A stretch of 64,000 bases of DNA, from positions 51,296 through 115,295 of the forward strand of contig NZ_CAMCEC010000007.1 of assembly GCF_945873775.1 (NCBI RefSeq), given 5' to 3'. Position numbers and translations under genes: made by a program. The notes beneath the pieces were generated by a model. That model saw nothing but the letters and a program-made list of their open reading frames with translations, was not told where the DNA came from and did no database searches. Source of the DNA: an uncultured Treponema sp. GTDB taxonomy: Bacteria > Spirochaetota > Spirochaetia > Treponematales > Treponemataceae. Shown one piece after another: positions 3,473 through 43,930 of this stretch (its first letter is position 1; every line of letters begins with the position of its first letter).

Positions 3473-4708
3473 TTATGAATTAGAATGCAAAATTTCTATA
3501 ACTTTGCCCAAAACTACAGACGGCTTCTGCGGCTTAACAAGATAGCTTCTTGCGCCCAGAGAAAGAGCCTGCATTACAACTTCTTTTGCAGCTGCCTTTG
3601 AATAAACAATAACTGGAATCTGCAAGCCTTTCCGCTGAAAATTCTTTAGAACATTGATTCCGTCCATATCCGGCAAATACAAATCCATGATAACGGCATC
3701 GTATTCTTTTCCAGTCGAAAGGGAATCAAAAAAAGCGCCGGCTGTTTCAAAAAGCTCAGTTTCACCGCTTACAGAAGAAAAAGTATTTTGCAGAAGCTTG
3801 CGCACGACAATGTCATCGTCAATAACCGCAATCCGCATCATGCTTCCAAAATTTCCTTCAAGTTCGCTTTTAGAATCAATAAATCCCAACGCAGATTCTT
3901 CGGCAGGCTTGTCAGAAATCAGAACTTTGTCATAAAGGAATTCCTTGATATTGTAATTTGAATCTTGGTCAACCATAAATCCCACGATAGATTCAATGTC
4001 GTTTGAAACTTGTATTCCAAAATATTCAGGATGCCCCTTTACAAGTTCCTTTGTAAAAACATCATTCGTCAGGATTTTTATATATTTGTTTGGGATTCTT
4101 CCTTCCGCGGAAATATTGTCAATCAAAAGCTCAAGGTTCATGCCGTCAACAAAACTAAGCTGAATATTTGTCAGCATAAGAATAACCTTGGGAACATTTA
4201 TTTTGTAATGCTCAATAAGTTCCGCAAGCCTGTATTTTAAAAGCATAAGTTTTTCACGGTTAAGTCCAAACGCAACTTCAATAAAAATCAGGCTTCCGTT
4301 CAAATGGACATCAAGAATGCAAGGCGTTTTGTCCATTGAAAATTCAATTTGAAGAATTTTTCCAACAGCCTCAAAGAAAACTTCAAATTTAATTGGCTTG
4401 GAAAAATATTTTACTACATTATATTCAACAAGATTCGCAATTTTTGAGCGTTCGATTACAGGACCTGTAATTATTATGGGAATTTTGCGTGCATTCGGAT
4501 CAACGCTCTTTTTTTCCAAAAGGTGCATCACATCTTCAGAAAGTCCGTCTTCCGCCTCAATGATTATCAAATTGGGCAGCAGAGTTATCATTTTTGTATA
4601 GGCTTCTCTACTAGAAACTGACTCAAGCGAAATTTGCTCAGTTGAAAATTTGTCATGCAAAAAACCGCCGAATAAAGAAGAGCAGTCTATAAGAAGTACC
4701 GATTTCAT
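3473..4708 (-). CDS. Two-receiver response regulator (degenerate N-terminal REC, STAS-like middle, intact C-terminal REC)
   Basis: C-terminal IAVIDDDIVVRKLLQ...VIMDLYLPDMDG...VYSKA...LVKPQ; N-terminal LLIDCSS...LIIIEAEDG...KYFSKPI. Confidence 0.75.
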   Translation of the reverse strand: MKSVLLIDCSSLFGGFLHDKFSTEQISLESVSSREAYTKMITLLPNLIIIEAEDGLSEDVMHLLEKKSVDPNARKIPIIITGPVIERSKIANLVEYNVVKYFSKPIKFEVFFEAVGKILQIEFSMDKTPCILDVHLNGSLIFIEVAFGLNREKLMLLKYRLAELIEHYKINVPKVILMLTNIQLSFVDGMNLELLIDNISAEGRIPNKYIKILTNDVFTKELVKGHPEYFGIQVSNDIESIVGFMVDQDSNYNIKEFLYDKVLISDKPAEESALGFIDSKSELEGNFGSMMRIAVIDDDIVVRKLLQNTFSSVSGETELFETAGAFFDSLSTGKEYDAVIMDLYLPDMDGINVLKNFQRKGLQIPVIVYSKAAAKEVVMQALSLGARSYLVKPQKPSVVLGKVIEILHSNS

Positions 4709-6166: not shown

Positions 6167-6712
6167 TCATTTTAAGTCCCTTGATTCCGCCAAGACTTTT
6201 GTAATCTCTCCTATATAAATTGTATGAAAATCATTTTTTCTATAAAACTGATTACAAAATTTCTCTTCCACAAATTTAAATGAATCTAGTTCCTGCGAAT
6301 AAAGTTTTTGGCAAAACAAGACAAGCCGAGCCTGCTTTATCCAAGGAGTTCCATTCATATATTCAACATCAAGTTTTGTCGCACGGAATTTATCTTCGTT
6401 GCGTCCTGAATGGCAACCACAGTAGTCAAGAGCAGTCTTATATCTTTCAGGAAGAAAACTCAACGAAAAACTATCCGTTTCATCTATAATTTCCTTTGTA
6501 TATCTTGAAGGACGAATATAAACTGTCGCCACATTTTTGTTCCAAAGAACTCCAAGCCCGCCCCAGTTCGCTGTCATTGTATTCGGTCGGCCAGTAATAA
6601 TGCTTCCGTCATCTGAAACTTTTTTTGTGCAAGCCGTAATCAGCATCTGATCTTTTCCAATCAGCTTGAACGGATTATCTAAAATCGCCTCTGGCTTTAT
6701 AACTTTCAACAT
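6167..6712 (-). CDS. Flavin reductase-like (FMN-binding split-barrel) protein
   Basis: ITACTKKVSDDGSIITGRPNTMTANWGGLGVLWNKNVATVYIRPSRYTKEIIDETDSFSLSFLPERYK. Confidence 0.75.
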   Translation of the reverse strand: MLKVIKPEAILDNPFKLIGKDQMLITACTKKVSDDGSIITGRPNTMTANWGGLGVLWNKNVATVYIRPSRYTKEIIDETDSFSLSFLPERYKTALDYCGCHSGRNEDKFRATKLDVEYMNGTPWIKQARLVLFCQKLYSQELDSFKFVEEKFCNQFYRKNDFHTIYIGEITKVLAESRDLK

Positions 6713-6772
6713 AAATTTTCCACTCCCATAAAAAGTCAAGATTAAAACTTCAGTTTTAGGATTGACCTTTTA

Positions 6773-6873
6773 AGTTGTTTCGCAACGAAGTGAGAAACAA
6801 CTGATAATAAGAAAGTTTGCAATGCAAACTTTTAAAGATAAAAACAGACGCTATTTTCGGCTGTTTTTATCTT
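6773..6873. repeat. Cluster of three consecutive palindromes
   Basis: AGTTGTTTC...GAAACAACT (6773-6802); AAAGTTTGCAATGCAAACTTT (6812-6832); AAGATAAAAACAG...CTGTTTTTATCTT (6835-6873). Confidence 0.75.
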
Positions 6874-6917
6874 ACCTCCTTTTAAAAATTCGGCTTTGCT
6901 ATTTTACAGTTTTAAAA

Positions 6918-6952
6918 TAAAAAAAGCCGGTCTGAACTTATCAAACCGACTT
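6918..6952 (-). terminator. Terminator downstream of tRNA-Ala
   Basis: Minus strand AAGTCGGTTTGATAAGTTCAGACCGGCTTTTTTT. Confidence 0.7.
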
Positions 6953-6963
6953 CCACTCAAATT

Positions 6964-7037
<74 letters not shown>

Positions 7038-7172
7038 TTAAATATTTTTGAATTTTACCAAAAAACAATAACAAGGTCAAGACATCACAAAGAAAGTATT
7101 CCAAATGGATTTAAAAACTTCCCTTAGGAACACTTTCTTTAGTGGCGTTTGATTTCTTGCAAAAAGTTTTTT

Positions 7173-7817
7173 TTAAACTGACCTGATGTCTTTTATTTCA
7201 GCATTGTTAGCTTCAAGCAAAGACTTCAATTCCGCTTCAGAAATATTCGAAACTTTTACGGTAACAGTTCTATGCTTAGAGTCGCTGGCATCAGAAGTTA
7301 CAAGCGAAACAATGTTTCCGTTTTTTTCTGCAATAGCCGCGGCAAGTTTTGCAAGCTCGCCTGGAATTTCATTTACAACTGCGACTGCGCGCACTCCAGG
7401 AGTTCTTGTGTTGAACATATCAATAAAAGTCGCAAACAAATCAGATTCAGTTACAACACCAACAAGAAGATTTTCCTTTACAACCGGAAGGCAACTGATT
7501 CCGTAGTCATTCATAAGCCGGGCAGCTTCTTCAACTGTCTGGTTTGCAGTAGTTGTCTTTACGGATTTCACCATTGTTTTTTCAACAGAAAGCTTGCTTA
7601 ATAAATATCCAAGCTCAAACATATCAAGGCTAGTTGCCGCGCTAGGAGAAGCTTTTGCTAAGTCTGTGTTTGTAATAATTCCAACAAGCGCGCCGCTTCG
7701 GTCAACAACGGGAAGCTTTTTAATTTTGTTTCTGCTCATTGTTTCCTTTGCTTCAAGAACAGAAGCCTCCGGTCCGATTGTTATAGGATTTTCAGTCATT
7801 ACATCTTTTACTAGCAT
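7173..7817 (-). CDS. CBS-domain-pair protein with ACT-like C-terminus (AcuB-like)
   Basis: MLVKDVMTENPITIGPEASVLEAKETMSRNKIKKLPVVDRSGALVGIITNTDL; second CBS GISCLPVVKENLLVGVVTESDLF; C-terminal VNEIPGELAKLAAAIAEKNGNIVSLVT. Confidence 0.85.
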   Translation of the reverse strand: MLVKDVMTENPITIGPEASVLEAKETMSRNKIKKLPVVDRSGALVGIITNTDLAKASPSAATSLDMFELGYLLSKLSVEKTMVKSVKTTTANQTVEEAARLMNDYGISCLPVVKENLLVGVVTESDLFATFIDMFNTRTPGVRAVAVVNEIPGELAKLAAAIAEKNGNIVSLVTSDASDSKHRTVTVKVSNISEAELKSLLEANNAEIKDIRSV

Positions 7818-7819
7818 AA

Positions 7820-8530
7820 TCAGCCTCCTAAATACGCAGATTTTACTGCACTGTCTTTTATCAAGTCTTGAGCGTTTCCGCTTTTTGAAATTACGCCTGT
7901 TTCAAGTATATATGCGCGGTTGGCAATTGACAATGCCTTGTATGCGTTCTGCTCAACCAAAAGAATTGTTGTTCCTGCCGAACTGATTTTTTCAATAATG
8001 CTGAAAATTTCATCAACAAGAATCGGAGCAAGTCCCATGCTCGGCTCATCAAGCAAAAGAAGCGACGGCTTTGACATAAGCGCGCGGGCCATTGCAAGCA
8101 TCTGCTGTTCACCGCCGGAAAGTGTTCCAGAAATTTGTCCTATTCTTTCTTTTAAACGCGGAAAAAGCTCAAAGCACCATTCCATGTCAGTTTTAATTGC
8201 ATCTTTGTCTTTGCGTGAATAAGCTCCCATTTCAAGGTTTTCTTTTACGCTCATATTTGCAAAAACCCTGCGCCCTTCCGGAACTTGAATAAGCCCAAGC
8301 TGAACAATTTTATCCGCGCTCATATTTGTTATGTCTTTTCCTTCAAATTTTATTGTTCCGCTTGCCTTTTTTACAAGGTTGCTGATTGAATGAAGCGTTG
8401 TGGTTTTCCCAGCTCCGTTTGAGCCAATGAGCGTAATGACTTCGCCTTTTTCAACATTGAAGGAAATTCCTTTCAGCGCCTTGATTGCTCCGTAAGAAAC
8501 AACAAGATTTTCAACTTCAAGCATGCTCAT
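7820..8530 (-). CDS. livF: Branched-chain amino-acid ABC transporter ATP-binding protein
   Basis: Walker A GSNGAGKTT, LSGGEQQMLAMARALMSKPSLLLLDEPSMGLAP. Confidence 0.93.
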   Translation of the reverse strand: MSMLEVENLVVSYGAIKALKGISFNVEKGEVITLIGSNGAGKTTTLHSISNLVKKASGTIKFEGKDITNMSADKIVQLGLIQVPEGRRVFANMSVKENLEMGAYSRKDKDAIKTDMEWCFELFPRLKERIGQISGTLSGGEQQMLAMARALMSKPSLLLLDEPSMGLAPILVDEIFSIIEKISSAGTTILLVEQNAYKALSIANRAYILETGVISKSGNAQDLIKDSAVKSAYLGG

Positions 8531-9342
8531 TTTTTCCCTCCAACATCTTCATAGCCAGAACCAAGGTACGCTTTTATAACTTCTTCATTTGACTGAATTT
8601 CCGCAGGAAGCCCGGAAGCAATTACACGTCCGTAGTTTAAAACCATAAGCCGCTCGCAAATTCCCATGACAAGTTTCATATCGTGTTCAATCAAAAGAAC
8701 TGTAAGATTAAATTTTTTGCGGATAAATGAAATAAGCTCCATAAGTTCTTCAGTTTCCTGGCCGTTCATTCCAGCCGCAGGCTCATCAAGCAAAAGAAGC
8801 TTTGGATTAGAAGCAAGCGCGCGGCAAATTTCAAGCTTACGCTGCTCACCGTAAGGCAAGTTGTGCGCAAGTTCATTTTTCTTAGAATCAAGATGAAAAA
8901 TAGAAAGCAAAAGCTCTGTTTTTTCCTGCATGATTTTTTCATCGTTGCGGAATTTTTTAGTCCTGAGCAAAACATCAATCGGCGTAACGGTTCTAGTCTG
9001 ATGAAGCGCGATTTTTATATTTTCCGCAGCAGTCAAATGTCCAAAAAGCCTGATGTTCTGAAAAGTGCGGGCAATTCCAATCCTGTTCAACTGGGCAGGC
9101 GATTTTCCGCTTACAACTTGAATGTTTCCGTCGCGTCCAACAAATGTAATTGTTCCAGAAGTCGGCTTGTAAATTCCAGAAAGCATATTGAAAACTGTTG
9201 TTTTTCCGGCTCCGTTCGGACCAATAAGTCCAATCAGCTCGCCCTGATAAAGCTCAAGGTCAAAATCACTTACCGCGCGCAAACCGCCAAAAACAATTGA
9301 AATATCCTTTGCACGAAGAAGAAGCTCTTTGTTTTCGCTCAT
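8527..9342 (-). CDS. livG: Branched-chain amino-acid ABC transporter ATP-binding protein
   Basis: GPNGAGKTTVFNMLSGIYKPTSG...IARTFQNIRLF...LLLDEPAAGMN. Confidence 0.93.
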   Translation of the reverse strand: MSENKELLLRAKDISIVFGGLRAVSDFDLELYQGELIGLIGPNGAGKTTVFNMLSGIYKPTSGTITFVGRDGNIQVVSGKSPAQLNRIGIARTFQNIRLFGHLTAAENIKIALHQTRTVTPIDVLLRTKKFRNDEKIMQEKTELLLSIFHLDSKKNELAHNLPYGEQRKLEICRALASNPKLLLLDEPAAGMNGQETEELMELISFIRKKFNLTVLLIEHDMKLVMGICERLMVLNYGRVIASGLPAEIQSNEEVIKAYLGSGYEDVGGKK

Positions 9343-10355
9343 TTTCTTCCTCCTTGCTTTTTAAACAATCTGGCAAAAAATCCAGGAATTCCATCGTATA
9401 CTTTTATAAAGCTCAATTCTTTCGTTCCAAGAAGTCCCTGCGGACGGAAAAGCATTACAAAAATCAAAACAACAGGATAAATAAGCAAACGGTAATCGCG
9501 CAAGAATCTAAGCGCTTCCTGAAGAATTGTAAGAACAAATGCCGCAAGAATTCCGCCGGTTATGCTTCCCATTCCGCCCAAAACAACAAAAATCAAATCG
9601 TTAATTGAATTGTTAAAAGAAGCCAAATCCGGTTTTATAAATCCAATAAACGGAGCATAAAGCGCGCCGCCAATTCCTGCAATAAACGAAGCGATTACAA
9701 AGCCCGTCATTTTATAGCGGAAAACTCCAATTCCATTGCTGTTTGCCGCAACCTCATCTTCGCGGACTGCAAGAATTGCTCTTCCATAAGTTGAACGCAA
9801 AAAATTCTGAAGAAGAACAACAATCACAACAAGCGAGCCAATTACCGCAAGATAAGAAATTGCCGCGCTGTGGTCAAGTGAAGTTGTAAAAATCGTGCTG
9901 AACTGTTTTCCGTTCGGACCGCCTGTTATAGACTTTAAATTTATAAGGCAAACTCTGATAATTTCACCAAACGCAAGTGTTACAATCGCAAGGTAGTCGC
10001 CTTCAAGCTTAAGTGTAGGAAATCCAATCAAGAATCCCAAAAAAGCCGCAATAAGTCCGCCAAGCAAAATGCTCACAGGCAAAGGAATTCCGGCTTCTGT
10101 AAGAATAATAACTGAATATGCTCCAAGCGCCTGAAATCCGGCTTGCCCCAAAGAAAGCTGACCTGTAATTCCGCAGATAACATTTACGCTAATTGCCATG
10201 ATTGCATTTACACCGGCAAGAGTTATAATCTGAGCAGTGTAGGCATCTATCAAAGGCATTCCAAGCGGCAAATCCATAAGAACCGCAGGAACTGCAATGC
10301 AGACAAAGGCAATAACAAAAAGAATTATCGTATTTCTGGTAAATTTGTCTTTCAT
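9339..10355 (-). CDS. livM: Branched-chain amino-acid ABC transporter permease
   Basis: GQLSLGQAGFQALGAY, LAIVTLAFGEIIRV, TGGPNG, GIGGALYAPFIGFI. Confidence 0.92.
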   Translation of the reverse strand: MKDKFTRNTIILFVIAFVCIAVPAVLMDLPLGMPLIDAYTAQIITLAGVNAIMAISVNVICGITGQLSLGQAGFQALGAYSVIILTEAGIPLPVSILLGGLIAAFLGFLIGFPTLKLEGDYLAIVTLAFGEIIRVCLINLKSITGGPNGKQFSTIFTTSLDHSAAISYLAVIGSLVVIVVLLQNFLRSTYGRAILAVREDEVAANSNGIGVFRYKMTGFVIASFIAGIGGALYAPFIGFIKPDLASFNNSINDLIFVVLGGMGSITGGILAAFVLTILQEALRFLRDYRLLIYPVVLIFVMLFRPQGLLGTKELSFIKVYDGIPGFFARLFKKQGGRK

Positions 10356-42451: not shown

Positions 42452-42550
42452 AAAGTCTCTCTCTCCTTTTGGTTCTATTTTAGGTTTTGTAATTAGCCCA
42501 GAATACCGAGTTTTGTGTTTATTGCCATTATCGAGCTCAACTGTATAATC

Positions 42551-43930
42551 CTAGTTCTTCGCTGTACGCACAACACGGAAACCATAATTGTCGTAGCCTA
42601 AATCTGGGCGCAAACTATTCCGCTTATAAACAGAACAGGAGTCCGCACCAATGACATAACAACCACTACGACTCACGCGGTTAGAACCCGACAATGCACC
42701 AGTAGAAGATGTACTGCCTGATATGCTACTGTTCCAATCCCAGCACCATTCATATACATTGCCGCTCATGTCGTATAGCCCCAACTCGTTTGCTTGTTTT
42801 GTCTTTACTTCATGAGTTCCTTTGGTGCCTGCTTCTGCTGAATTATCCGTGTACCAAGCAACGTCATCAATTGTATCACTTCCTGCATAAATATACTGTG
42901 TGCCGCTTAGTCCGTTTCCGCCGCGTGCCGCATATTCCCATTCAACTTCTGTAGGTAGTCGGTAACCGTTTGCACCAAAGTTACATGTTGCAGCATCCCA
43001 AGTAACATTATTGCCTGAGCTTGAACTTGGCACATTTCCCCACTCATCAGAATTTGTAGAACCGTTTATCGAATAACAAGGCGTAAGTCCTTCTTCTATT
43101 GAACGCTTGTTGCAGTAAACAATTGCGTTATACCAGATTATTCTGCCAATCGGATTGTTATCCGAAGTTCCAATTGCAGTTGCCAAACTACTTGGAAGAC
43201 TTCCTATTACAGTCTCGTATTCTCCCCGCGTAACTTCATGGTCGCAAATATAAAAATTGCTTATAGTTACAGCTCTTCCATCAATAAATACTTCGCTATT
43301 TGGAGCTGCTTCTGTTATTGTTGCGCCTTCTACAAACACAAAGCCGTCTGTAGACCACTTTGCATAAAGTGTAACATCGTTTTTTTCAAATACATTAATA
43401 GAAGCATTATTGTAAACTGGGTCGCTGTCTATGCTGGTCGCCCAGCCTTGAAATGTAGAGCCGTCTTTTGTAAATAAATTTTCTGAAAGGGATTGGGAAG
43501 TTCCGTAAGTAAAAATTTGAGAAGACATTGTTCCAGTTCCGCCGTTCGAATCAAAAGTTACAGTAAATTTATCATGAAGCGTTACAGTGCAAGGAGAAGT
43601 TTCTCCAGCAACAACTGTTACTTCTGAATCTCCAAGGCCAGACAAAACATTATTTTTATAAGCCTTGACTTCAACCGTGTAAGTTTCTGGGCTGACTTCT
43701 AAAAACTCCAGTACCCCCCCCGAAGAACCGGTTTCACTCTGAATAACATCTTCATTTAACAAAAGTTCTACTATATAAATATCAGCTTTTGTACTGGAAC
43801 TAATTTCACGTCCGCCGCCCGGCAAGGCAACACGAATTGAGCCGCCCTTTTCAGAGCCGCCGCTCACGTTCACGCAGGACGCAGCCACAAATAAAAACGC
43901 AAATAAAGCCGGAACAATAAATTTCTTCAT
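42551..43930 (-). CDS. Lipoprotein with InlB-type repeat and C-terminal SUMF1/FGE-sulfatase domain; candidate DGR variable protein
   Basis: MKKFIVPALFAFLFVAASC lipobox; VTFDSNGGTGTMSSQIFTYGTSQSL...FQGWATSIDSDPVY; GYRLPTEVEWEYAARGG...LGLYDMSGNVYEWCWDW...GFRVVRTAKN. Confidence 0.85.
   Translation of the reverse strand: MKKFIVPALFAFLFVAASCVNVSGGSEKGGSIRVALPGGGREISSSTKADIYIVELLLNEDVIQSETGSSGGVLEFLEVSPETYTVEVKAYKNNVLSGLGDSEVTVVAGETSPCTVTLHDKFTVTFDSNGGTGTMSSQIFTYGTSQSLSENLFTKDGSTFQGWATSIDSDPVYNNASINVFEKNDVTLYAKWSTDGFVFVEGATITEAAPNSEVFIDGRAVTISNFYICDHEVTRGEYETVIGSLPSSLATAIGTSDNNPIGRIIWYNAIVYCNKRSIEEGLTPCYSINGSTNSDEWGNVPSSSSGNNVTWDAATCNFGANGYRLPTEVEWEYAARGGNGLSGTQYIYAGSDTIDDVAWYTDNSAEAGTKGTHEVKTKQANELGLYDMSGNVYEWCWDWNSSISGSTSSTGALSGSNRVSRSGCYVIGADSCSVYKRNSLRPDLGYDNYGFRVVRTAKN
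42584..42673 (-). other. Candidate DGR-type variable region at the 3' end of the lipoprotein gene
   Basis: SRSGCYVIGADSCSVYKRNSLRPDLGYDNY: 24 of 30 codons end in C or T; followed by GFRVVRTAKN-stop. Confidence 0.45.
43714..43721 (-). repeat. Homopolymer G8 (coding strand) within the lipoprotein gene
   Basis: Coding TCTTCGGGGGGGGTACTGGAG. Confidence 0.98.

Follow-up and report, generated by a model that had tools for sequence, protein, structure and literature searches.

A TvpA-family lipoprotein gene of an uncultured Treponema is not a target of the retroelements found in its genome and has very probably been diversified by recombination

The window analysed here, a stretch of 64,000 nucleotides from an uncultured Treponema sp., carries a gene for a TvpA-family lipoprotein of the ordinary kind, which is not a target of either of the two diversity-generating retroelements (DGRs) found in the genome. 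Every test of a DGR target that was made failed, except for the presence of reverse transcriptases in the genome, and we consider it very probable that this is a non-targeted member of the family whose diversity has arisen by recombination. The features of the gene to which the text refers are the following.

42551..43930, minus strand: lipoprotein gene, 459 aa, with its ATG at 43928-43930
43874..43930, minus strand: signal peptide with lipobox, MKKFIVPALFAFLFVAAS-C, recognised by reading the sequence rather than with a signal-peptide program
43714..43721, minus strand: run of 8 G within the lipoprotein reading frame (coordinates computed)
43358..43567, minus strand: Flg_new (Listeria-Bacteroides repeat) domain, PF09479, E 7.7e-13
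42566..43276, minus strand: FGE-sulfatase / C-type-lectin-fold domain, PF03781, E 5.6e-34; closest solved relative TvpA
42496..43216, minus strand: block of divergence from the close relative L081, with an 89% patch inside it at 42873-42990
42584..42673, minus strand: 30-codon segment, corresponding in position to the variable region of TvpA; template not found

The order of the elements in the protein is a lipobox (VAASC, within MKKFIVPALFAFLFVAASC, read from the letters and not by a predictor), the Flg_new repeat and a C-terminal FGE/C-type-lectin-fold domain; a TTG-started open reading frame reaching 44113 is a mechanical extension of the same gene. As the original prediction had described, the minus-strand frame ends in SRSGCYVIGADSCSVYKRNSLRPDLGYDNY-GFRVVRTAKN-stop (42551-42673). 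The predicted TvpA-like, FGE-fold lipoprotein was likewise borne out by the lipobox, the FGE-sulfatase domain and the PDB comparison, in which the top match is TvpA of T. denticola (2Y3C, E 5.3e-44). The alignment spans the whole domain (query 7-240 of 246) and passes through the segment, and because of this sequence match we take the fold as settled. The two proteins have in common that they are lipoproteins with a C-terminal FGE/C-type-lectin-fold domain, the Flg_new repeat being an extra feature of the window protein. The domain is probably used for ligand binding rather than catalysis, and the lipoprotein is predicted to be exposed at the cell surface. Named relatives include T. bryantii and Treponema MAGs from ruminants, which suggests a gut or rumen treponeme.

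The proposal that the segment is a DGR variable region was examined by searching for its template, under the rule that each template position carries either the base of the target or an A. BLASTN of 42551-42690 against the genome (a 49-contig draft, completeness 99.88%) did not find a second copy, and the near-identical non-coding repeat expected under the proposal was also absent by the same-base-or-A search, which, run over the whole genome with two 60-base halves and at most three mismatches, returned only the gene itself. When the latter search was extended, again with at most three mismatches, to 199 congeners and 293 genomes of the order, two sets that overlap in part, just poly-A-like runs were recovered, which were matched by a reversed control pattern as well. 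A template elsewhere in the genome, the genus or the order was therefore rejected, as nothing beyond such runs was found. In addition, no template was found with the same 3' end as the segment, the place of a conserved 3' initiation site (IMH).

The genome does contain reverse transcriptases, two by the RVT_1 model, each beside its own template and both on contigs other than that of the window; the original prediction was thus right that the window holds none. The DGR on contig C17 (L029, 38000-52728) consists of an HRDC protein, an AAC-rich template and then the reverse transcriptase. In T. denticola, DGRs are accompanied by an HRDC accessory gene and have multiple targets at scattered sites (PMC4891356), and the C17 system is a complete DGR of the T. 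denticola type, with reverse transcriptase, template and HRDC protein. BLASTN with its template detected targets on C17 itself and remote ones on C1 (150346-150490) and C27 (31402-31552), which served as an internal positive control for DGR behaviour. Specifically, the C1 target has 21/51 A sites changed and 1/94 other bases, and the target at C17:49707 has 24/52 A sites and 4/104 others changed; on C27 the figures are 25/52 and 14/104, with three gap columns, and the target at C17:44507 keeps 97% of the non-A sites and 55% of the A sites. In fold, and in having the variable region at the C-terminus, these targets resemble the window gene; the best of them match the template at 96-99% of the non-A sites with 41-47% of the A sites changed, whereas the window gene has no match. 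As to the remote-target idea, a DGR with remote FGE targets is indeed present in this genome, but those targets are other genes. A row of FGE-fold target genes adjoins the C17 DGR, and several further FGE genes there, which agree poorly with the template, resemble targets that have decayed.

The second DGR, on C36 (L030, ~6397-9792), has its reverse transcriptase beside phage-like genes and its own template, from which its target differs at 15/25 A positions (one of them a missing base) and at 0 other bases. The variable region of this target is thereby one base shorter than the template, which would imply either a frame shift in the target gene or an assembly error. The C17 DGR also occurs in the genome of the close relative (G223), where 159/165 bases of the template are unchanged. 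We also observed that the target at C1:150346 and its counterpart at C35:37979 of G223 (L032 and L101) are identical at 52/52 template-A sites while their upstream flanks differ by 10%; conservation is thus higher in the variable region than around it, so either retargeting has not taken place since the two genomes diverged or the region was transferred recently.

Direct comparison of the segment with the two templates of the genome, by an A-tolerant alignment score, gave a clear separation from a true target. The score against the chromosomal template was 25 (shuffles 17.7 +/- 2.7, P 0.01), compared with 214 for the true C1 target, and the segment was rejected as a target of that DGR; we attribute the small excess over the shuffles to the shared descent of the protein family. 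Against the phage-like C36 template the score was 16, at the level of the shuffles (17.0), and this candidate was rejected too.

The codon pattern from which adenine mutagenesis had been proposed does not discriminate either. The count given in the original prediction, 24 of 30 codons ending in C or T, is correct (T17, C7, G4, A2), but when codons for the same residues are drawn from the remainder of the gene, 21.2 pyrimidine endings are expected and P(>=24) is 0.12. Eleven of the 30 residues can be encoded only with a pyrimidine ending, and one only with a purine ending. Residue content and codon usage thus account for the endings, so that the pattern is not a DGR signature. Moreover, in the two genuine variable regions inspected in the genome, the final C was kept at 17/17 template AAC codons in each, unlike the mixture of 17 T and 7 C in the segment. 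The departure from the RxGGSW-type core, also put forward as a sign of mutagenesis, is real, but such departures are frequent among homologues, which show RGGNY and RGGAY and, in a C17 paralogue, CGGGF.

How the gene varies could be followed in the one close relative available, the locus L081 of G223, which is a MAG. The DNA flanking the gene is 97-98% identical on one side and 89-97% on the other, and the protein identity falls from 94% in the N-terminal part to 51% in the FGE domain outside the segment and 20% in the segment, returning to 89% in the tail. At the DNA level, identity drops abruptly near 43230 and recovers near 42490, just ahead of the next gene. The whole FGE module of ~0.7 kb is thus different between conserved flanks, at all bases, with indels and not only at adenines. 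Confinement of the differences to adenine-derived positions, as expected of a DGR target, is not the case against this one relative: the closest syntenic homologue differs at non-adenine positions across the entire module. To judge from the sequence, the difference from L081 is a block replacement or mosaic exchange and not adenine mutagenesis.

Other FGE loci were compared between the same two genomes. At a second locus, C22:1508-2065 (L026) against C24 of G223 (L111), a block difference is again present between flanks that are 93-97% identical, and the G223 version of this gene has 68% DNA identity to the FGE module of the window. The C2 and C4 FGE loci, by comparison, are 94-98% identical. 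We propose that the C-terminal module was exchanged as a unit between close relatives, most likely through homologous recombination in which FGE alleles or paralogues were the partners, and that the odd residues of the 30-codon segment belong to this ordinary divergence. We infer recombination rather than see it directly, because a donor of either module was not found in the two genomes.

Two further observations concern these loci. A dispersed hairpin-forming repeat of ~70-90 bp, its copies 88-97% identical, lies downstream of the FGE gene of the relative (L081 ~4230-4330); the genome under study (G000) has copies at several places, at C14:20451 (near the C14 FGE gene), C3:51669, C18:243 and C22:39392. 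This repeat might offer homology for exchange. Furthermore, directly after the run of 8 G, L081 has one base fewer (~3200) and its reading frame is broken there; the run is a possible phase-variable tract, or the difference may be an error of the MAG.

An alternative history would have the gene derive from a TvpA-like DGR target which has lost its own template and reverse transcriptase, its variable region having drifted since. Strains of T. denticola without a core DGR do retain target genes, and some of these are excessively mutated (PMC4891356); the segment lies exactly at the variable region of TvpA, with its varied residues largely where homologues vary. We nevertheless regard this origin as unlikely: non-adenine substitutions have altered residues that most homologues conserve, namely RGGSW and the L preceding GFR, the gene of the relative differs as a whole module, and at <=3 mismatches neither the 199 congeners nor the 293 genomes of the order hold a fitting template. 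It is far less probable still that the gene is a live remote target with its template missing from the assembly. The 49 contigs of the draft and the existence of remote targets in this genome would leave room for it, but the high completeness, the finding of two reverse transcriptases only, each with its own non-matching template, and the mixed T and C third positions, where two genuine targets show C only, speak against it. Least probable of all is a catalytic formylglycine-generating enzyme, the two core cysteines of which have a catalytic role: the window protein shares the PF03781 domain with sulfatase-modifying FGE / SUMF1 enzymes well above the cut-off, but its best enzyme match (1.5e-16) is far weaker than that to TvpA (5e-44), in an alignment with a bacterial FGE the first core cysteine is matched by Ile and the second by Cys, and none of the NCBIfam enzyme models scores above its own cut-off.

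In conclusion, it does not suffice for calling a DGR target that a gene has a TvpA-like fold, that the segment is C-terminal and that many of its codons end in a pyrimidine. TvpA itself is served by a template repeat and varies at adenines only (PMC4891356), whereas the gene of the window varies block-wise and its template was not found; as proteins, true targets look like a non-target of the same genome, and the template test alone separates them. We suggest, tentatively, that the FGE-fold lipoproteins of this treponeme may vary along two routes in parallel: DGR mutagenesis would act at some loci, and at others, the gene described here among them, the entire binding module would be swapped between conserved flanks. 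If module exchange holds in more strains, it would represent a second way for treponemes to vary the same surface fold.
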